Shown here: one piece after another, positions 3,001-49,185 of the stretch
How the letters are laid out: each line of letters begins with the position of its first letter
Numbering within the stretch: the first letter of the stretch is position 1
IMG/VR virus record: IMGVR_UViG_3300006921_000023
Coordinates: 1-52,236 of that record
Length of the DNA: 52,236 nucleotides
Source: a virus
Reading direction: 5' to 3' (one strand)
The notes under the pieces: generated by a model
Told to the model about the DNA's origin: nothing
The model's database searches: none
Seen by the model: the letters and a program-made list of their open reading frames with translations, nothing else
Program-made: the position numbers and the translations under genes

Positions 3001-6000
3001 AACTGTGATCCAGTTGTAAGTCCTTGTATATTTTGTACTGATAAGTTAATTGATCCAGTCGCAAGTTCTAATGCTGATACTGAACCTTCTAATGTACCTG
3101 ATACTGTGTTCAGTGCTGATACAGATGCATTGATTGATCCAGTTGTTATCTCAAGTTGTGATAAACTTGCTGATTGATCTGTATTAGTTGCAACTGTTAG
3201 ACCGATACTGTAAGCATTCTGATTGATTGATGAGTTTGAAGCTGAGATAGAAGATGAAATCGTTGAAACGAAACTTCCCGAATCTATTTCTAGTTGTGCT
3301 ATACTTGCTGATGCATCTCCTGCTGTTAAAGATAGAGATCCAGTTATTTGTAATGTTGATCCATCCCAAGCTAACTTATCACCTAGACTAAATATACCTT
3401 CTTGGTTTACAGACAGTTGAGGCCAAGTTCCCACCGTACCCGAAGATCCTATATTGAATGCATAGATATATGCAGTTGTTTGATGGGCTGTGAATGAAAT
3501 TTTTCCTGCATTGTAGCCGGTATTACTAGTATCAGACTTTGTAACTCCATTTACTCCAGCATTATATGTTGTAGTGTCTGATATGTAGAATGACCAAGTT
3601 CCTGTGGAAGATGGAATGATCCAATTGAAGTCATATTTAAGTCCGACTACTAAATTAGTGATCGCTTGATAACCATATCCATTTGTAATTAAATTTGTTA
3701 CTTCAGGGGCATTTGTAGTAGTTAAATGACCACCACCTATTGTCCAACCGGTTGTTCCATCTGTTAATGATCCGTTTGTTAAGAAATCGGATCCAGAATC
3801 TCTAGCTACGAACGGAGTATTACTACCTTTCCAATCTCCCGTTCCAAGGAATAATTTTTTATTTGTACCATCCAACGTCACACCTTCACCTGCAGTACCT
3901 ACTGTGAGTTTATTTGAGATGTATCCATCTGCTCCTGCTATATTTGGTGAGTAGATTGATGTGCTTGTTATGAATGTACTTGATCCAGAATATTGACCGG
4001 TTGCGATTGCAGTACCTATATCAATAAATGAACTTATATCTGTTGTTGCTTGTGTGACTTTTTTAACTGCTGGTTTTGCCCAAAGTACGTATGGTGTATC
4101 GTCATCTGCACCGTATGCATCCACATTGTGGAAAGTTCGTATAGAACACCATTTGGATCCTGAACCCCAGATGTAGTCAGTAGTCTGTTTAACCTTTCTA
4201 CCAGTTACAGTATCATACATCCCACCTTTATAGGTGCCATCATAGAAAGATGAAGAACCGTGTATATATGCTACAACTAGATACCAACGATCTTGTTGTC
4301 CTCCTCTACCTCCATCTGCAATGGATTGTGTGAAGTTTCCTTTTGAAGATACTCCATCTCCTGAGAGCGAGAGGAAGTATGGATTCCAGTTAGCTGTATT
4401 TGGAGTGGCAGAGTGATATCGCATTCCTCCCATAGCAGCTCCCGCTGCATATGCATTCCCTGAAGATGCATACTCAGCAAGGTCATAAAGTATCCCATTT
4501 GGTCCCCAAGAACCTACTGAAAGAAATTGTGGCCAATTTTTATGTGCAGCATCACCTGGATTTGTATGTGAACCAGATGCACCTTGGAATACATTATCAT
4601 CTCCAGAACGTGCTCCAATGTACCAAGAACCAGTCATTCTAGATTCACCTGGGAAGTTTACATACATAGAAACTTGGTATGTTTGCATGTGATCTACCTC
4701 AAACCAATCCGTGTAAAAACCACCACCGTCTGTATCTGAATCTGGTGATGCTACCCAAACTTTTTCGTTGAGTCCATGTGGTCCGACTGACATTGATATT
4801 TCATTGTCTGTTGTTTCACCAATTTTATAATAATTTGGTGTTGCTGATTGAACCCATGGATCTGTTATAGATAAATTAGAAAAATCATTTAATATATTTT
4901 CGCCTGGTAGCATTGTACTACCAAATGATAAGTTAACTGCTGGTCCTAATCTTACGCCATCTGTTTCATCATATTGTATGAAACTTCCAGTTGGATTTCC
5001 ATCACCGATATATGCTCTTGGTGCACCCGAGTTATTTTCTAATTGTATTCCAGTTCCACTAAATTTAGATGAGCTTAATGATAATTTTCCTGCTGCATCT
5101 AATCTAGCATCATTCTTGAATATTGATCCGGAATCAACTGTCCATCCACCGATCAATGCTTCGGATGCTGTTACATCTCCTTCGATAAGTCCAGCACTTG
5201 CTGAGAATGCTCCATCCTGATCAACTTGGAAATGAGATGATGATATCATGTAAGTACCATTTGGTTCTAATTTAATCTTATTACCGCCATCTGTGAATTT
5301 ATCTGATTCTATTTTCCATCCAGCTATATTACCTGCAGATGCTGATACCGTACCTTCAATCGTTAAATTTGTTCCATCAAAATATAATTTTGCAGTATCT
5401 GCTAATCCACCTAGATGTAGTTTACCTCCATCAAGGTCAATCATTGAACCTGCATTATTGTTATTCCAATTATTTGATTGTACTTGTCCAGTTTTAATTT
5501 GATCACCTGATATAGTTGTACCAGTGCTAGTTCCAGCTGGATTCAGATAAAGAGCTCTTACTTGTCTTTCTGATAAACTTCCGGTGTATATTCTTATCTC
5601 ATCTATTGATCCATTCCATCCATGTCCGTAATTTACTGCATATTCACTACTGGCTAGATCTGCACCTCCTCCAATTCGTGTGAAACTAAAACCTGCTTGA
5701 CTAGTTCCAGTTGCTGTCCATGCATCCGTACCTTCCAGTACTCCATCAATATATAATTCGTTCAGTTGATATTTGGATACTAGTACATAGTGGTGCCATT
5801 CTGTGTCAGCTACTACGTTTGAAGTCCAGCTGGAATGATTACCTCCAGTGTTATCTGTTCCTTCATGATTCCATCTAAACTTACCTCCCGATACACCGAT
5901 GTCAATGAAATTATTAAATGGAGATCCATATAATATTCTTTGGTATTTAGTGTTGGTGGAGCCATCTGTTATAGAGTTTCGTCTGGCCCAGAATGAGATT

Positions 6001-42421: not shown

Positions 42422-42689
42422 CTTTTACTATTATACCTTCCAACTCTCGTACAAGCTGGTTGATTTGTTTATATATACTTCCTACATAATCATCTGATTT
42501 GAACATTCCTTTCTCATCAATGACATCTATCTCTGCAATGATCTTAGTAACGATCTGATTTAATCCATCTACCCACTTAGATAACTGATTTGAAAAGTCT
42601 TCATGTCGTTCCACCTTACGAAGTAAATTCCATATAATAAAAATACTTACGACGAGCAATACAGATAGTATTATTATTGTAACGATCAT
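42387..42689 (-). CDS. Small single-pass membrane protein (100 aa)
   Basis: The N-terminal 24 residues (VTIIILSVLLVVSIFIIW) form one membrane helix. It is followed by an amphipathic helical tail with an acidic end. The start overlaps the upstream HD-domain gene stop by four bases (ATGA), and its end overlaps the sigma-factor start by 35 bases, which argues for coupled translation. Its function is unknown. A lysis accessory or a membrane anchor are both possible, given the transglycosylase two genes upstream. Confidence 0.7.
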   Translation of the reverse strand: MIVTIIILSVLLVVSIFIIWNLLRKVERHEDFSNQLSKWVDGLNQIVTKIIAEIDVIDEKGMFKSDDYVGSIYKQINQLVRELEGIIVKDEKDDSNDSSN

Positions 42690-43441
42690 GAATCGTCTCC
42701 GAATAAACTTTTGAATGCATCTTTGGCGGAGGCAGCCGCGTCAGTCGAGAGCGCGCGATTTTTTGTAGCGCGAGTTGAGGTAGCGGGTTTTGAAACCTGT
42801 CCTCCATCAATAGCCCATTTCTCGTATTCGATTCTGGAAGCCATATGATCTGCATGATGTAATAGTATTGGCATGTGTGAAGTCATCTTTGAATCTTTCA
42901 TGCTTGCTTTGAAGTATGGTTTATTCGAATCATCAAATACTCCATCGTGTAGTTTAATACCCATATACTCATTGTGGGACATTTTAATTCCCCAATCTTG
43001 TAATAAGAATATTGTTCTATCTGGAACCATCATGAAAGGTATCTCTGGATTGTTTGTATAAATCTTTCCTTGATTCTTTCTATGCCATTCACTAGGATTA
43101 GGTAAGTACTGTGCTCCTTCGCTCGTACCTATCTTTCCCAAGTCGTGATTGATTGCTGCGAATACTAATTCTTCTCTCGTGTAGTCTGTTGAGTTAGCAC
43201 CCATACGATTCCACACTTCATATAATTCTATTGCACATTCCACTACTCTCAATACGTGATCCACATAACCACCTGGAAAGCAATTATGGAAATGTTCAAA
43301 GCTTGATGCTGGCATCATACTTATTCTATCCTCATAGTGAGTGTAGAATTCCGTTAATTGTTTTTTACGTTCTCCGCTTATCTCTGTATCAATACATTCT
43401 AGTAAGCGTTCCCAATTTTGTTTAATTTCTTCTGCTGTCAT
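42686..43441 (-). CDS. HD-domain phosphohydrolase
   Basis: The 251-residue protein carries an HD-type metal site: H62 (GGYVDHVLRV), H99-D100 (AAINHDLGKIG), H155 and H165 (SHNEYM, LHDG), and HHADH at 195-199. The spacing fits HD-superfamily hydrolases acting on nucleotides or nucleotide second messengers. The GGYVDHV opening is often found in HD proteins of phages and in YfbR/RelA-like relatives, but the substrate cannot be read from the sequence. The C-terminal 40 residues are low-complexity (ATSTRATKNRALSTDAAA). It shares the operon with a nucleotidase, so nucleotide-pool control is a reasonable guess. Confidence 0.85.
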   Translation of the reverse strand: MTAEEIKQNWERLLECIDTEISGERKKQLTEFYTHYEDRISMMPASSFEHFHNCFPGGYVDHVLRVVECAIELYEVWNRMGANSTDYTREELVFAAINHDLGKIGTSEGAQYLPNPSEWHRKNQGKIYTNNPEIPFMMVPDRTIFLLQDWGIKMSHNEYMGIKLHDGVFDDSNKPYFKASMKDSKMTSHMPILLHHADHMASRIEYEKWAIDGGQVSKPATSTRATKNRALSTDAAASAKDAFKSLFGDDS

Positions 43442-44017: not shown

Positions 44018-44629
44018 TTATATTATTTGGTCAATAACTTTTATTTCTAATGCTTTATCAGCTGTTAGCCAGTAATCCGTTCTTTGTATCTGATCCCATT
44101 CCTCAGCTGATAATGTACTTTTCTCACTCAATATTGTATTAGACATTTTGTCTATTTCAGATACATGGTGTATACTTGCTTTAACATCAGCCTGTTTACC
44201 TTGTAGCCAAGTAGATGATTGGTGAAACATAATTGTTGAATGTTTACTAGCATATCTAGCTCCTGTTCCACTAGCCAATATGACTGCAGCTGCTGAGAAA
44301 GCTTTTCCTCTACATATTGTATTTACTGGAACGCTTAGTGATTTCATATAATCTATGATTGCCAACATTTCGTATACACATCCACCTTCCGAGTTAATTA
44401 TCATATTGATCGGTTGATCGATAGTCTCTTCCGTTCTGTTATTTAATATAGTTCGAATACGAGTCATCATATCGAATAGCGTGTACCCATCAATCTCTCC
44501 AACTAAATAAATAACGCTATCCTGTATGTCGAATGCGTATGTTATTTCATTGAACGTTTCTTTATTAGAGTTATCTTGTTTAATATCCTCTTTTCTGATT
44601 GGAGTGGGTTTATCATCGTATATTGACAT
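44018..44629 (-). CDS. ClpP-type serine protease
   Basis: The 203-residue protein is a ClpP family member: S112 in GKAFSAAAVILASG, H136 in STIMFHQSS, D185 in TDYWLTADKALE, and the INSEGG oxyanion motif at about 79-83, all in the expected order and spacing. Length matches bacterial ClpP. In cells ClpP is a tetradecamer fed by ClpX or ClpA, neither of which is encoded here. Phage ClpP-like enzymes often process capsids, but this gene lies with lysis and nucleotide genes, far from any head gene in this window. With the tmRNA and Hsp20 about 4 kb away, a protein-quality role is an alternative. AAAGGGA lies before the ATG. Confidence 0.93.
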   Translation of the reverse strand: MSIYDDKPTPIRKEDIKQDNSNKETFNEITYAFDIQDSVIYLVGEIDGYTLFDMMTRIRTILNNRTEETIDQPINMIINSEGGCVYEMLAIIDYMKSLSVPVNTICRGKAFSAAAVILASGTGARYASKHSTIMFHQSSTWLQGKQADVKASIHHVSEIDKMSNTILSEKSTLSAEEWDQIQRTDYWLTADKALEIKVIDQII

Positions 44630-44632
44630 GCA

Positions 44633-44842
44633 TTATCCCTTTAATATATCTTTCATTTTATCTGTGCTAGACTTTGTCGATCCAAACGCTTCTTTAATAC
44701 TCTCCGCGCTGTATCCAAGAGATGCAGCTAGTCTCCTACACATTGTTTTGAATTCGTGTATATCTAAATCTTCTCTTACTTCTAGAACAACCTTCTGAGC
44801 TTCTTTAGAATATGTACCTCTAGTATATTCAATCTTATCCAT
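44633..44842 (-). CDS. Small protein (69 aa)
   Basis: I do not recognise this protein. It is charged and probably a three-helix bundle (VREDLDIHEFKTMCRRLAAS, then YSAESIKEAFG), which could bind nucleic acid or a partner. It overlaps the nucleotidase gene's end by eight bases and lies three bases before the ClpP gene, so it is translated with them. A regulator or adaptor of ClpP is possible but unsupported. Confidence 0.65.
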   Translation of the reverse strand: MDKIEYTRGTYSKEAQKVVLEVREDLDIHEFKTMCRRLAASLGYSAESIKEAFGSTKSSTDKMKDILKG

Positions 44843-45410
44843 TTGCTATCTCAACCTCATTACCATAATCACCCTTCACTCGTCTTCTAATACTACCATC
44901 GTCTGGGTTACGTTCGTATATGAATTTTTCTCCAAATTGTAGTTCTAATTGATCATCTTTCTTATATAGATAATCCATAACAGCTATCCAATCAAAGAAC
45001 GGAGCTGATCCGAAATGGATCCATTCACCCTCAAACGTAGTCTGACCTCTATCAGATCCACCCATATCATCTATCAGATAATCACCTTTGTTTAGATTTT
45101 TATGATGTGATAGAATAAGTCTTTTACAAGCATTCTCGCCTAACCATTTTTCTACCCACAACCTCTTATCCATCCATGCAGATGGGTTATCCCATGGTGC
45201 GGTTGATAAAATATAAACATCGAAATCTTGGCATAATTTATTAAATGATTCTACTGCTCCTGGTAGTGGTTTTAACATCTCAAACATTCCAGGTATAAGA
45301 TCCGGACTTCCCTTATACTCTTCATTCTTTCTTAGTGGGTGTAAAGCTGCTGCACCGCAGAAATCAGCTAGTACTCCATCCATATCAATATACATTATCT
45401 TTTTAGCCAT
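44835..45410 (-). CDS. 5'(3')-deoxyribonucleotidase
   Basis: The 191-residue protein is a HAD-type nucleotidase of the NT5C family: nucleophile D9 and acid/base D11 in MYIDMDGVLADF, the ILSTAPWDNPSAW motif, the lysine KRLILSHHKN, and DYLIDD near the end. These enzymes strip phosphate from deoxynucleoside monophosphates and help balance nucleotide pools during phage replication. It is upstream of the ClpP gene, beside the HD phosphohydrolase two genes further on. A TTGCAT-(N17)-TATATT promoter and a TATAAATA sequence lie in the 61-base gap before it. Confidence 0.9.
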   Translation of the reverse strand: MAKKIMYIDMDGVLADFCGAAALHPLRKNEEYKGSPDLIPGMFEMLKPLPGAVESFNKLCQDFDVYILSTAPWDNPSAWMDKRLWVEKWLGENACKRLILSHHKNLNKGDYLIDDMGGSDRGQTTFEGEWIHFGSAPFFDWIAVMDYLYKKDDQLELQFGEKFIYERNPDDGSIRRRVKGDYGNEVEIANG

Positions 45411-45438
45411 AAGTCTTCCATTTTTATATTTATACTTA

Positions 45439-45467
45439 AATATACAAAATTATTTTGGATTATGCAA
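45439..45467 (-). promoter_or_regulatory. Sigma-70-like promoter of the nucleotidase gene
   Basis: TTGCAT (45462-45467) and TATATT (45439-45444) with a 17-base spacer, 29 bases before the nucleotidase ATG. Five bases downstream of the -10 box is TATAAATA (45427-45434), identical to the T4 late promoter core, so this gene may be read both early and late. Confidence 0.55.
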
Positions 45468-45471
45468 CTAA

Positions 45472-45945
45472 TTACTTGATTATTTTTTCCAGCTTGCGAA
45501 TTTCTCTTTGTATCTCTCTAGCGGCTTTTTTAGTCTTAGCTCTATTTAGAGACTTCTTCAATTTATGATATGTAATCATAGCTTGTCGTTTGAGATTAGC
45601 TTTTTGAATCTTTGAGAGTTTTGGTTTGTTTGATTTCGGTTTCGGCGGTGTCGGTTTAAGCGTTCCTTTTAATTCTGGTTGCTCTTTGCCTTTATGAAAT
45701 ACATTACCATCTTTATCAACGAATTCCTTCATGAAAGCCCACCCTCTAGGCTTTCCAGATCCTTTATAACTTTTCAGTGGAGTAAAGGGAAAGTCCTTTT
45801 CATAATTTTCTCTGACGCACTCATGGCATGTAGTAGCTGTTGTTCCTTCCGTTGATGGAACATATTGTCCACAATCTCTACATTCCATATGTCTAACACC
45901 ATCTATATGTTGCACGTCGTATTTTATGTCTTCTGTTTTCTTCAT
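45472..45945 (-). CDS. Zinc-ribbon protein with basic helical tail (157 aa)
   Basis: Two CxxC pairs at C22/C25 (CRDC) and C40/C43 (CHEC) form a small treble-clef or zinc-ribbon near the N-terminus. A proline-rich linker (LKPTPPKPKSNKPKLSK) and a very basic helical tail (KKSLNRAKTKKAAREIQREI) suggest nucleic-acid binding. I do not recognise a named family. The gene is preceded by a TTGGTT-(N17)-TATATT promoter about 25 bases upstream and probably starts an early or middle transcript running into the nucleotidase gene. No Shine-Dalgarno is evident. Confidence 0.72.
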   Translation of the reverse strand: MKKTEDIKYDVQHIDGVRHMECRDCGQYVPSTEGTTATTCHECVRENYEKDFPFTPLKSYKGSGKPRGWAFMKEFVDKDGNVFHKGKEQPELKGTLKPTPPKPKSNKPKLSKIQKANLKRQAMITYHKLKKSLNRAKTKKAAREIQREIRKLEKIIK

Positions 45946-45960
45946 CTGTAACTTTTATTA

Positions 45961-45989
45961 AATATACATAATTTTTTTCAAACAACCAA
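45961..45989 (-). promoter_or_regulatory. Sigma-70-like promoter of the zinc-ribbon gene
   Basis: TTGGTT (45984-45989) and TATATT (45961-45966) with a 17-base spacer, about 16 bases before the ATG. The very short leader means the message may start only a few bases from the gene. Confidence 0.5.
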
Positions 45990-45997
45990 CTTTTCAA

Positions 45998-47131
45998 TTA
46001 CAAATTTGTAGATGGATGTTGCTTTCCATCTGGATCTCGCCAATTTCCACTAGGATATTTATACCATCCAGCTTTATGCCTAGCTGAAGATGTTGCTCTA
46101 TCACCGTATAAATTATCCTCTTGCTCCTCATAGTGAAGTCCATCATTACCATTTTGTCCTATTACATTCATGCGCTCTTCTGCTTTTTCCTCATCATCTT
46201 TTACATAATGCTTTTCGACAAAATCTGGATATGTTAGATCTTCAATTACATCCTCCTCTTCTAGTGGAATTGGATATGGTTTATTAAATTCCATTCCTTC
46301 TGGTATAGACATTACTACTTCTGGATCCTTTCTTTTTATTTGAGCGAATGCCATATTGGATGCAACTACTAATGCTATAGCTAGAGGATCGAATACAAAT
46401 ATAATCATTAGCAAGAACCAATTAACAACCGTGTTCATATCCTTACCAGTCGTTTCAGCTAGATACTTTAATGGTCCCAATTCTCGCTCATCTTCATTAG
46501 ATATTTCCTTTTCTAATAAAGCCATGTCCGTTGTTGAAATGGAATCTAATACCGCTTCTAGTTTTAGATTGATGTCATCTCTATCTGCTACTGTATTTTT
46601 TAGTTCAGCTTGCAATGCTCTTCTTGTGGAGCTAGATGTAGTTGTAATTACTTGTTCAGCTTCTTTATCATAGTATGATACTGAACCAGGATTTGATAAC
46701 GATATTCTTAATTCTGATATTGATTTGTTAAGTTGAGTCTTTTCAATATTGAGGTCTTCTTTCGTTTCTTGAAATCTAATTTGCTTTTGATTTAGTATAG
46801 CTAACGACTTATCTAACAACTCAGACTTTGTTGCTGTTGATTGATATGCTCCAGATAAGAATCCATAAATACCTCCGGAGGTAATTAACATCAATACTAA
46901 CACTGCTATTGACAGATATGCTCGTAGAGCTTTATTTATAGTGTCCCAATATTGATACAATAGCGATGCTGTGACGAGTTTGGCAAACTCCAAAGAGCCG
47001 GCCATTATAATAACTTGTGTACTCGCACCAGCAAATAACTTACTCAATCCAAAGACTGAGTAGAATGCTGCTGAGCCAGATACAGCTAGTGCAGAAATTC
47101 CTATCAGAATCGGAAGAAGGTGCTTTTTCAT
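45998..47131 (-). CDS. Four-helix membrane protein with coiled coil and GWY-type tail (377 aa)
   Basis: Three hydrophobic helices lie at about 5-27, 38-58 and 70-92, a coiled coil at about 105-220, and a fourth membrane helix at about 235-262 (FLLMIIFVFDPLAIALVV). The last 20 residues carry AGWYKYPSGNWRDPDGKQHP, resembling the short DUF2510 motif (GWYxDP...W.DG). The layout resembles DUF4407-type membrane proteins, though I give that as a resemblance only. Its role is unknown; phages use such proteins for superinfection exclusion or to reshape the envelope. It starts seven bases after the stop of the 58-aa gene. Confidence 0.78.
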   Translation of the reverse strand: MKKHLLPILIGISALAVSGSAAFYSVFGLSKLFAGASTQVIIMAGSLEFAKLVTASLLYQYWDTINKALRAYLSIAVLVLMLITSGGIYGFLSGAYQSTATKSELLDKSLAILNQKQIRFQETKEDLNIEKTQLNKSISELRISLSNPGSVSYYDKEAEQVITTTSSSTRRALQAELKNTVADRDDINLKLEAVLDSISTTDMALLEKEISNEDERELGPLKYLAETTGKDMNTVVNWFLLMIIFVFDPLAIALVVASNMAFAQIKRKDPEVVMSIPEGMEFNKPYPIPLEEEDVIEDLTYPDFVEKHYVKDDEEKAEERMNVIGQNGNDGLHYEEQEDNLYGDRATSSARHKAGWYKYPSGNWRDPDGKQHPSTNL

Positions 47132-47138
47132 AATTGAT

Positions 47139-47315
47139 TTAGCCTTGGTTTAATTGAACCCTAGCTTCGCATTCTTTTACCAATTGTCTTGTTTGTCTTA
47201 ATTTATCGACAGTTAATTCAACGGTAATTTTTTTATCACGTAGTCCTTCTAGGATAGTGAATAATAATTGATCTGCTTGGTTCAGTTTTTCTTGTACTTC
47301 TTGCTTGTAGTTCAT
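47139..47315 (-). CDS. Small helical protein (58 aa)
   Basis: A 58-codon gene starts at 47315 with a strong AAAGGAG five bases before the ATG, and ends seven bases before the four-helix membrane protein gene. The product (MNYKQEVQEKLNQADQLLF to VQLNQG) is entirely helical and charged, with no cysteine pair or membrane segment. A clean ribosome site and its position between a terminator and the membrane protein gene make it convincing. Its function is unknown. Confidence 0.75.
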   Translation of the reverse strand: MNYKQEVQEKLNQADQLLFTILEGLRDKKITVELTVDKLRQTRQLVKECEARVQLNQG

Positions 47316-47346
47316 AGTTTTTCTCCTTTATAACTTTTATTCATAT

Positions 47347-47352
47347 AATATA
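47347..47352 (-). promoter_or_regulatory. Possible -10 box before the 58-aa gene
   Basis: TATATT within GTATATT lies about 32 bases before the 58-aa gene, just after a terminator. No TTG is found at the -35 position, so support is weak and rests on the position after a terminator. Confidence 0.3.
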
Positions 47353-47368
47353 CATATGTATGTTTATG

Positions 47369-47398
47369 AAAAAAGAATAGAGCATTTCTGCTCCATTC
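47369..47398 (-). terminator. Rho-independent terminator after the DUF2061 gene
   Basis: A 10-bp hairpin with a GAAA tetraloop, GAATGGAGCA and TGCTCTATTC with one G-T pair, is followed by six T on the minus strand. It lies 29 bases after the DUF2061 stop and separates the Hsp20 transcript from the next unit. Confidence 0.85.
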
Positions 47399-47426
47399 CG
47401 TATAACTCCAGTAGGTTGGATGTCAT

Positions 47427-47636
47427 TTACTTGTCTTTAGTACCAAATTTACACTTTAACCAAATACGTTCATGGAAGTAATATAGAATAAATTTAGTAA
47501 ATAATTCTAATGCTCCAATCTTTAAGCCTACTGTTGCACTACCAGTTATGATCCATCCTAGAGCCATTGTGTCCAATGTTCCTACGATTCGCCAGCTGAT
47601 TGTCTTTAGTAGACTTCTTAATTTAGTTACGTTCAT
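47427..47636 (-). CDS. DUF2061 small membrane protein (69 aa)
   Basis: The protein has the DUF2061 pattern: SLLKTISWRIVGTLDTMALG at the start, a central membrane-like helix with GWIITGSATVGLKI, and the ending YYFHERIWLK. Family members are short inner-membrane proteins of unknown function found in bacteria and phages. An AAAGGAAGG lies before the ATG and a rho-independent terminator lies about 30 bases after the stop, so it ends a transcript that starts at or before the Hsp20 gene 13 bases upstream. Confidence 0.85.
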   Translation of the reverse strand: MNVTKLRSLLKTISWRIVGTLDTMALGWIITGSATVGLKIGALELFTKFILYYFHERIWLKCKFGTKDK

Positions 47637-47649
47637 TCGATACCTTCCT

Positions 47650-48081
47650 TTATTTAATTGTAACCGCCTTTGGCTTACTTTCCTCTGAAAGTGGTACTCT
47701 TACTTTCAACAATCCATTAGCCATCGTTGCTTTTATTTTGGTAAGATCGAATTTCGGACTTACCTTCCATCCCATATCAAAGCTTCTCCTAGCTATACCT
47801 TTATGAATATAGTCAGGTGCTTCAACATCTGATGGGTTTGATTCTACACTTGGTTTTTTATAAGCAACCTTCAAAGTATTGCTTTCTATTGTGATATCTA
47901 TATCACTTTTTTCCAACCCGACGCATGCAATGTCAAAACATAGTTCGTCCTCTTGTAGAAATACATCTACTGGGTAACTAGGTTTCTGTTCCTGCAATCC
48001 GCGGAACGATGCTTCGCCGTCAAAAAAATTTCTGAATAATAGGTCCGTTGGAAAGAACCTCTCTTGAAAGAGTGTTGTCAT
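47650..48081 (-). CDS. Hsp20 small heat-shock chaperone
   Basis: The 143-residue protein has an alpha-crystallin domain at about residues 38-140, with YPVDVFLQEDELCFDIACVG, GLEKSDIDITIE, the helical IARRSFDMGWKV and the signature MANGLLKVRVP near the C-terminus. The tail K-A-V-T-I fits the IxI/V assembly motif. Such proteins bind unfolding proteins without ATP. Hsp20 genes are known in cyanophages of the T4 group. The gene has a strong AAGGAG before the ATG and an ATATTTATTA motif about 65 bases upstream, so it is probably well expressed. It lies next to the permuted tmRNA, separated by one unknown gene. Confidence 0.94.
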   Translation of the reverse strand: MTTLFQERFFPTDLLFRNFFDGEASFRGLQEQKPSYPVDVFLQEDELCFDIACVGLEKSDIDITIESNTLKVAYKKPSVESNPSDVEAPDYIHKGIARRSFDMGWKVSPKFDLTKIKATMANGLLKVRVPLSEESKPKAVTIK

Positions 48082-48129
48082 ATTTAATCTCCTTAAATGA
48101 TTTTATGTTAAGACACCCAACCTACTGTA

Positions 48130-48567
48130 TTAGTTGCCTTCAATAATAAATATGTACGTATGTACTTTTTCCTGTTTTTTATTTAATCTAAATCTATACT
48201 CAACGAATTTGTTTCCATGGCTCTCCATTAGATCTTTCATCTCCTTGAGCTTTGGCAGATTTTTAGCTGATAGCGCTACCATGTTGTTTACCATAGTAAC
48301 GTTAATCATATCTGATTCGATCATTCCCTTTAATCGTTTAGTATCCTTCACAGGGATTTTTTCTATAGGCGCTTGAAAGTCTGGTATTATATTATCTTTC
48401 AATTTTATATCACCAGACTCAATCCACTCCTCTATATTTTTGAATGCTTTATCTTGGCGCTTCTGAGGTAGACGATCTAACCATTCCCAGATTTCTTCTT
48501 CTGAGAACATCCAGAATTCTGAGTCTGGATTTAGTACATCTTCGATAGTCCATTTGTCTTTTGCCAT
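48130..48567 (-). CDS. Unknown acidic protein (145 aa)
   Basis: I do not recognise this protein. It is acidic and tryptophan-containing in the first 50 residues (FSEEEIWEWLDRLPQKRQDK), with mixed helix and strand later and a beta-like end (VEYRFRLNKKQEKVHTYIFI). I chose the ATG at 48567 because an AGGA sits eight bases upstream; an in-frame ATG at 48576 is three codons longer but has no spacing for a ribosome site. The gene immediately follows the tmRNA in transcription order, so the tmRNA 3' trailer and this leader may be the same RNA. Confidence 0.7.
   Translation of the reverse strand: MAKDKWTIEDVLNPDSEFWMFSEEEIWEWLDRLPQKRQDKAFKNIEEWIESGDIKLKDNIIPDFQAPIEKIPVKDTKRLKGMIESDMINVTMVNNMVALSAKNLPKLKEMKDLMESHGNKFVEYRFRLNKKQEKVHTYIFIIEGN
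48146..48153 (-). promoter_or_regulatory. Candidate late promoter before Hsp20
   Basis: The minus strand reads ACATATTTATTATTG inside the last codons of the 145-aa gene, about 65 bases before the Hsp20 ATG. Confidence 0.35.
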
Positions 48568-48603
48568 GTTTAACATCCTATTTTAATATTACCAACCTCC
48601 ACC

Positions 48604-48636
48604 GGGCTTTAACGACTTGCCCTATTAAATGCCGTT
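48604..48636 (-). other. H-type pseudoknot after the tag
   Basis: Stem 1 pairs AACGGC (48631-48636) with GUCGUU (48611-48616), six pairs including one G-U. Stem 2 pairs GGGC (48619-48622) with GCCC (48604-48607). The order a-b-a'-b' with loops of 8, 2 and 3 bases is an H-type pseudoknot, as found after the tag in many tmRNAs. The 3-base loop across stem 1 is short, so the fold may be tight. A separate perfect 7-bp pairing, CAGGGUG (48713-48719) with CACCCUG (48641-48647), can enclose the tag. Confidence 0.6.
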
Positions 48637-48648
48637 GGGTCAGGGTGC

Positions 48649-48681
48649 CTAAGCCGCCATTGCCATTTCAACTTGTTCGCC
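48649..48681 (-). other. tmRNA tag reading frame (GEQVEMAMAA)
   Basis: Ten codons and a TAG give GEQVEMAMAA. The ending AMAA matches the degradation tails of bacterial tags (ALAA, AMAA, VAA) that ClpXP and other proteases recognise. The first codon is placed at GGC because the bases at -5 and -4 are UA, as in Escherichia coli (U85, A86). A tag starting G-E recalls those of Bacteroidota from memory. The frame lacks its own start codon or ribosome site, as expected for a resume codon. Confidence 0.85.
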
Positions 48682-48807
48682 AGTTACGCGTTGACCTTCC
48701 TCTTATCCTTATCACCCTGTCAAATCCAGTCACCCCCATATCATTGTTCTATTTAGTGGAGGTGGAGGGTATCGAACCCTCGTCCAAAAGTGCAGCTAAT
48801 AAAAGTA

Positions 48808-49185
48808 CTAGCGGTCATTATCATCTTCAATATCCCAATTGGGATCAAAATCCATAAGATCTGCAGGCAACCAATTAGATAATGCTTTCTGTATGGATTT
48901 GAGTCCACTTTTAGATTTCTTTATCTTAACTAGTTCTGCACATCTCTCATACATTTCTATGTCAGGTGCTGAATAATATTCAATGAGTGTTTCTATTAAC
49001 TCATTCATATCAGTATCATCATCCATTGGATTGATGATCATAAGCACCCTACCTTTCCTTACTGATATAGAATCGTAAGTATCTTGTTTAGTGATCAATC
49101 TATACATATTGTCCATAGCTTCTTCGTCGATCAAATCGACGTTTGCAGGATCGTTTATGTCATAGTTATGTTTCATCTTCTGCAT
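48808..49185 (-). CDS. Acidic unknown protein (125 aa)
   Basis: I do not recognise this protein. It is strongly acidic (NPMDDDTDMNELIETL and a DPNWDIEDDNDR end) and probably helical, with no membrane segment. Its stop TAG at 48808-48810 lies at the edge of the tmRNA acceptor piece, so transcription through this gene must run into the tmRNA and the mature RNA would be cut out of the message. Start options are the ATG at 49185 or at 49176. An ATATTTATAT motif abuts the first ATG. Confidence 0.72.
   Translation of the reverse strand: MQKMKHNYDINDPANVDLIDEEAMDNMYRLITKQDTYDSISVRKGRVLMIINPMDDDTDMNELIETLIEYYSAPDIEMYERCAELVKIKKSKSGLKSIQKALSNWLPADLMDFDPNWDIEDDNDR

Follow-up and report, generated by a model that had tools for sequence, protein, structure and literature searches.

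Do proteostasis genes that lie close together in one phage act as one machine? The question is raised by the window analysed here, which is the entire IMG/VR virus record IMGVR_UViG_3300006921_000023 (52,236 bases, G+C 0.365). Within about 5 kb of one strand it carries genes for a ClpP-fold serine protease, a small heat-shock protein (Hsp20) and a transfer-messenger RNA (tmRNA), identifications on which open reading frame (ORF) calls, Pfam, ARAGORN and Rfam agree. A first-pass annotation, made from the sequence by itself, had read the trio as a module acting in a single pathway. We consider it likely instead that these are three separate phage genes in a gene-rich, variable stretch, namely a phage-owned two-piece tmRNA, a divergent ClpP that is not a prohead protease, and Hsp20 as cargo. 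They probably do not form one machine, because the genes come and go separately in relatives and because the docking surface of ClpP has been lost. The tmRNA is the stronger find.

ARAGORN places the tmRNA at positions 48558-48848 of the minus strand and reports a circularly permuted RNA with the tag GEQVEMAMAA. The RNA passes the Rfam model for permuted tmRNAs (RF04321, tmRNA_permuted) with 68.4 bits against a gathering cut-off of 47, and falls below the cut-offs of the alphaproteobacterial model RF01849 (32.4 bits, cut-off 50) and the cyanobacterial model RF01851 (44.2 bits, cut-off 70). Its permuted order is seen in the 3' acceptor piece, which is encoded ahead of the 5' coding piece (Table 1, where the ends of the pieces are inferred rather than mapped). 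In relatives, the intervening sequence between the pieces is 16-22, 68-70 or 90 bases long.

Searching IMG/VR for the tag, which samples loci independently of ClpP but misses tags ended by TGA, returned 96 stretches. With other loci included, there were 114 tag-bearing loci; five were cut by contig ends and dropped, and the 109 that were parsed comprise 68 distinct sequences, or 53 at 90% identity. Among the 109, the tag reads GEQVEMAMAA (42), GEQVELAMAA (42), GEHVEMAMAA (23) or GEHVELAMAA (2), a tally made with a search pattern that already requires most of the tag letters. Loci obtained independently of the pattern read GAQVEMAMAA (L029, L041 and L189) or GEQVELAMAA with a TGA stop (L174). 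Codon changes within the tag are either synonymous or confined to Q/H and M/L exchanges, and the frame ends in a protease-type tail followed by a stop.

The 53 representative sequences also show covariation. All of them carry G3:U70 in the acceptor stem (P1), where the search patterns fix six of the seven pairs. The free P1 pair, number 5, is compensating (GC/AT/CG/GT = 33/17/2/1) and remains paired in all 53. P2 is paired in 96% of cases, compared with 64% when partners are shuffled among sequences, and in about 95% compared with 55% when its last pair, which the patterns fix, is left out. The T arm is paired in 100% compared with 83% after shuffling. For P3 the values are 97% and 88%, with an acceptor strand that was found by a pattern favouring words starting with GA and that is one base out in L069, L093, L111 and L147. 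The pseudoknot stem, whose strands the patterns force to be purine/pyrimidine, gives 98% and 83% in the 45 of 53 sequences that could be parsed for it (eight could not). The patterns leave only P1 pair 5, P2 pairs 1-4 and the T-arm pairs unconstrained.

We infer the workings of this RNA from its sequence features. Host tRNA enzymes would cut a single transcript to yield an acceptor piece and a coding piece, which P1, P2 and P3 would hold together. Charged with alanine by virtue of G3:U70, and loaded with host SmpB, the RNA would then free stalled ribosomes and add A-GEQVEMAMAA, which could be degraded by host proteases that recognise such tails. The earlier suggestion that the tmRNA keeps ribosomes working with SmpB from the host agrees well with an RNA that looks functional in these respects.

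The first-pass annotation also stated that SmpB and ClpX are absent. An absence from the window by itself is weak evidence, because the record is probably a fragment of a larger genome, and longer relatives and isolates were therefore searched as well. This set holds 35 larger related records, most of them fragments, and consists of 33 viral contigs and two isolates; the relatives reach 170,801 bases and the isolates' records measure 160,410 and 190,001 bases, the latter being Microcystis phage Mel-JY01. No SmpB was found in the window record or in any of the 35 related records (0/35) by a search that detects it in 10 of 14 control genomes. Matches to AAA_2 occur in nine of the 35 records, including eight of the 33 viral contigs, where the proteins are ~390-410 amino acids long and some lie just upstream of the tmRNA region. 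These were considered as ClpX candidates and rejected, as the three proteins scanned with Pfam best match AAA_5 (MoxR/CbbQ type). With three of the nine AAA_2 matches scanned in this way, no Clp unfoldase was found in the window or the 35 records, and the stated absence of both partners holds.

The ClpP ORF matches Pfam CLP_protease (E = 1.3e-31), and its structural model (predicted local distance difference test, pLDDT, 86.5) has Thermus ClpP as its best fold match in the PDB (E = 2.9e-18). The triad S112, H136 and D185 is invariant in 21 of 21 aligned ClpP proteins; its residues had been numbered correctly and described correctly as intact. Fold and Ser-His-Asp triad together place the protein in the S14 family. 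Docking-pocket residues, taken from PMC6853987, were mapped onto the same 21-protein alignment. Throughout the alignment the gate tyrosine, Tyr62, gives way to Ile, Met or Val (Tyr in 0/21); Phe82 is replaced by Ser, Asn, Thr or Gly in 21/21, Met92 by Arg in 21/21, and Leu114 by Ser in 20 and Ala in one; the Leu48 position is mostly small or polar, and Ile90 is retained. The hydrophobic IGF-docking pocket and gate tyrosine by which ClpX dependence can be recognised are thus missing from the aligned ClpPs and, as judged from these residues, the docking pocket is lost. For this reason the phage ClpP is unlikely to be a plain spare for host ClpXP, and its job is probably a separate one that is not driven by ClpX. 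The proposed pairing with host ClpX is accordingly doubtful on the evidence of the aligned residues.

Loss of the pocket points to an ATPase-independent barrel, to a different partner, or to a spoiler of host ClpP. Mutation of the equivalent residue, Tyr63, to Ala opens the ClpP entry pore, according to PMC8182300. Because the gate tyrosine is Ile, Met or Val in 21/21 proteins and the docking pocket is gone, the phage ClpP might be a naturally gate-open, ATPase-independent degradation barrel, and the tmRNA degron may route tagged proteins the phage's way; we hold this as a minority view, unlikely but deserving attention. If it is true, phage ClpP would act alone on unfolded proteins. The antibiotic ADEP (acyldepsipeptide) acts on host ClpP, and the phage enzyme would be a built-in counterpart of that effect. 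We think it quite unlikely that the protein serves as a spoiler, entering host ClpP rings and, for want of docking pockets, weakening host ClpXP or ClpCP. The combination of a retained fold and catalytic residues with an erased pocket, found in 21/21 ClpPs, would fit such a role, but an intact triad would be superfluous for it, and mixed rings are doubtful because the protein is only 25% identical to E. coli ClpP.

Linkage was assessed in samples anchored on different genes. The HD-first sample, anchored on an HD-domain gene and hence independent of ClpP and tmRNA, kept the 80 most query-like loci of 588 relatives, of which 25 have 6.5 kb upstream and 55 were dropped for short flanks. Among the 25 loci, ClpP is present in eight, the tmRNA in five and both in two (Fisher p = 1), the tmRNA being recognised by a pattern that divergent tmRNAs can escape; one locus, L232, has a tmRNA-like core 9.3 kb away without the GE(Q/H)VE(M/L)AMAA tag and was not counted as bearing a tmRNA. 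The co-inheritance of ClpP and tmRNA expected of a module is therefore not seen. The ClpP-first sample holds 52 loci, several of them near-identical; in the 28 whose sequence extends 6.4 kb or more upstream of ClpP (the other 24 were not used), a tmRNA lies upstream in 15, Hsp20 in 21 and both in 11. When loci are chosen by their tmRNA, ClpP lies between the tmRNA and a downstream HD gene in 17 of 50 distinct loci. Hsp20 is present in 12 of the 33 such loci with at least 1.2 kb upstream (four upstream and eight downstream of the tmRNA), and all three genes in six of them. The 35 larger records contain ClpP in 22 cases, a tmRNA in 23 and both in 11, and on one contig (G003; L009 and L096) the two lie 26 kb apart.

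ClpP and the tmRNA are thus inherited independently. ClpP keeps to a fixed place. In 52/52 ClpP-first loci it lies upstream of the HD gene, the two starts being no more than 1.2 kb apart, whether or not a tmRNA is present; in L001-L005 an SLT gene stands between ClpP and HD. In 8/8 full-flank ClpP-bearing loci of the HD-first sample, the middle of ClpP is 0.3-0.4 kb from HD. A module in which phage tmRNA tags proteins, phage ClpP and host ClpX degrade them and Hsp20 holds unfolded ones, the genes being kept together by this joint action, could draw on the intact triad and on the presence of all three genes within 5 kb in the window and in those 11 of 28 ClpP-first loci. We regard it as improbable, given joint occurrence in 2/25 HD-first loci, ClpP in 17/50 and all three genes in 6/33 tmRNA-first loci, the 26 kb between tmRNA and ClpP in G003, and a ClpP that has lost its ClpX-docking pocket. 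A conserved neighbourhood in relatives had been suggested as the check on the module, and this check found the genes largely unlinked.

Several observations weigh against our reading of three separate genes. Under plain minimum-energy folding the window tmRNA does no better than shuffled sequences (z -0.14), and for this reason the case for the RNA rests on covariation. Ser at pocket position 114 occurs also in the ClpP of jumbo phage PA5oct and in two head proteases, so this residue by itself is not telling. Hsp20 may be weakly linked to ClpP or to the tmRNA. It is found in 4/8 HD-first loci with ClpP versus 3/17 without (p = 0.16), in 3/5 with a tmRNA versus 4/20 without (p = 0.11), and in 21 of 28 usable ClpP-first loci. 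The HD-first sample is itself small (25 loci) and drawn from the loci most like the query.

We think it very improbable that the tmRNA is carried as a passenger or is a host copy in decay, such as the remnant of an integration site. Fragments of ssrA do occur in prophages, according to PMC9004378, but across 53 divergent sequences the phage RNA keeps helices that covary and a tag that is intact and conserved. In addition, a scan of an 84,980-species collection for E(Q/H)VExAMAA, to which TGA-ended tags are invisible, did not find the tag in any bacterial species. That scan returned a single contig, in a Nitrosopelagicus (archaeal) metagenome-assembled genome (MAG). This contig (L149, tmRNA 4220-4511) is probably mis-binned phage, because it encodes the SLT protein of the phages (E = 8.7e-81) as well as g125.

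The top PHROG match of ClpP is phrog_94, head maturation protease (E = 2.5e-37), and ClpP-type prohead proteases adjoining portal and capsid genes do exist. However, a T4 gp21-type S77 prohead protease is present in 10 of the 35 records, five with ClpP and five without, and lies 40-137 kb from ClpP in all five records that have both. The isolate Flavobacterium phage immuto has S77 beside its capsid genes, and ClpP was not found in its record. Since S77 occurs with and without ClpP, the latter would not be needed for making heads; it does not answer to the description of a sole head protease beside portal and capsid genes. The reading of ClpP as a prohead protease, which PHROGs would favour and which the first-pass annotation had named as a possible refutation, is thus largely refuted by these gene contents and highly improbable. 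What remains is a divergent ClpP core, predicted to be catalytically intact, whose fixed slot lies upstream of HD.

Two-piece phage tmRNAs and phage ClpPs are already known, whereas the tag and the pocket loss look new. PMC9004378 describes a two-piece tmRNA in Methylophilales phage Melnitz and other marine phages and reports that ARAGORN classes 53 of 133 unique phage tmRNAs as two-piece, of which 50 are marine or aquatic. Melnitz, like the window, combines a permuted tmRNA with a large T4-like marine phage and also carries hsp20, but its tmRNA groups with Alphaproteobacteria, whereas ours is below the alphaproteobacterial cut-off; neither ClpP nor the GE(Q/H)VE(M/L)AMAA tag is mentioned in the text of that paper, as far as it is accessible. 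In PMC11915505, 79 phage sequences are counted among 97,179, with three main permuted clades. As far as the open-licence literature searched is accessible, neither this tag nor the trio of tmRNA, ClpP and Hsp20 was found in it. Among Bacteroidota phages, Maribacter phage Panino, Chryseobacterium phage MA9V-3 and crAss-like cr10_1 (L153, L155 and L156) have permuted tmRNAs with G3:U70 and a Gly-first tag, as in the window, although their tags differ from the window's; Cellulophaga phage Calle_1 (L154) has a tmRNA in standard order.

Bacterial ClpPs (E. coli, Thermus, Staphylococcus) share fold and triad with the window protein, which lacks their docking pocket and their N-terminal RGERSFDIYSRL signature. 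In PA5oct, the 12 features around the phage-borne ClpP include no capsid or portal gene; this ClpP is 48% identical to E. coli ClpP and, unlike the window protein, keeps the gate tyrosine and N-terminal signature. The Mel-JY01 ClpP is 40% identical to that of the window and shares its pocket changes, with Leu at position 62, Arg at 92 and Ser at 114. The Mel-JY01 record also has an S77 protease, and no tmRNA was found in its 190,001 bases.

Table 1. Features of the window discussed in the text.
Feature	Positions	Strand	Basis and remarks
HD-domain protein	42686..43441	-	Pfam/PHROG; anchor gene for the linkage sample independent of ClpP and tmRNA
ClpP-fold serine protease, 203 aa	44018..44629	-	ORF, Pfam; triad S112/H136/D185; pocket replaced (I77, S97, R107, S128)
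DUF2061 membrane protein	47427-47636	-	Pfam E = 1.7e-22; adjoins Hsp20
Hsp20 small heat-shock protein, 143 aa	47650..48081	-	ORF, Pfam, PHROG
g148	48130..48567	-	ORF directly after tmRNA
tmRNA coding piece	48605..48737	-	5' acceptor strand GGGGGUG, D-loop-like CUGGAUUUGAC, P2 strand, tag ORF
Single pseudoknot of coding piece	48620-48623 with 48605-48608	-	stem GGGC with GCCC
Tag reading frame	48649..48681	-	GEQVEMAMAA + stop TAG
P3 strand of coding piece	48693-48696	-	GGUC
Intervening sequence, 19 bases	48738..48756	-	separates the two tmRNA pieces
tmRNA acceptor piece	48757..48816	-	3' half of tRNA-like domain: T arm, 3' acceptor strand, discriminator A48757
Short hairpin and P3 strand	5' part of 48757..48816; P3 strand 48813-48816	-	P3 strand GACC

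Three side observations concern the tmRNA loci. In L061 (3480-3844, minus strand), the two pieces of a permuted tmRNA whose tag is GEQVEMAMAA are separated by 90 bases that contain a complete tRNA-Ala with anticodon TGC. PMC11915505 describes as unique a permuted tmRNA, nominally archaeal, whose intervening sequence holds a tRNA-Ala; this may be a phage of the L061 kind in a mis-binned MAG. The 68-69-base intervening sequences of L014, L065 and L113 contain repeated hairpin-like AT-rich elements. Finally, TATTTAT stands at a near-fixed distance just upstream of the P3 strand in 40 of 53 representative loci (2.7 expected). This motif, the reverse complement of the T4 late-promoter core, is possibly a promoter or antisense promoter; it is not present upstream in the window tmRNA locus, where g125 overlaps the tmRNA start.

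Hsp20 (Pfam HSP20, alpha-crystallin domain, E = 7.7e-12) is found on either side of the tmRNA in relatives, accompanied by DUF2061 in many but not all of them, and we take it, as part of the reading that we favour overall, to be probably separate mobile cargo. Of all the proteins, g148 has the closest tie to the tmRNA; its fast-evolving family follows the RNA within 900 bases in 60 of 87 tmRNA loci. The window member matched neither a Pfam nor a PHROG family. It was considered as a substitute for SmpB and rejected: its model has a pLDDT of 74, Foldseek gave nothing at E ≤ 0.001, and no PDB sequence matched below E 0.066.

The right-hand genes of the window lie on the minus strand, and among the neighbours are genes for baseplate wedge proteins, for a primase and for an ATP-dependent ligase. 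Through a 625-aa baseplate wedge protein, the closest isolates are Mel-JY01 (47.6%) and immuto (42.5%). Of the 37 window ORFs, 14 have a Shine-Dalgarno-like site in front of them, compared with 2/31 and 1/44 (3/75 together) in immuto (L150, L152), and the host of the window phage probably differs from that of immuto in its use of translation starts. A Bacteroidota host, proposed from the Gly-first tag, was set aside on these counts, and the host may not belong to this group because the window phage uses sites that immuto hardly uses.

The negative result matters in its own right, as three nearby proteostasis genes in one phage need not be a module. A ClpP with an active site but without the pocket for docking an ATPase lets one test whether, in nature, ClpP can do its work with no unfoldase. 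A family of phage tmRNAs with a tag of its own lets one ask whether such RNAs provide rescue alone or also a degron of the phage's choosing.

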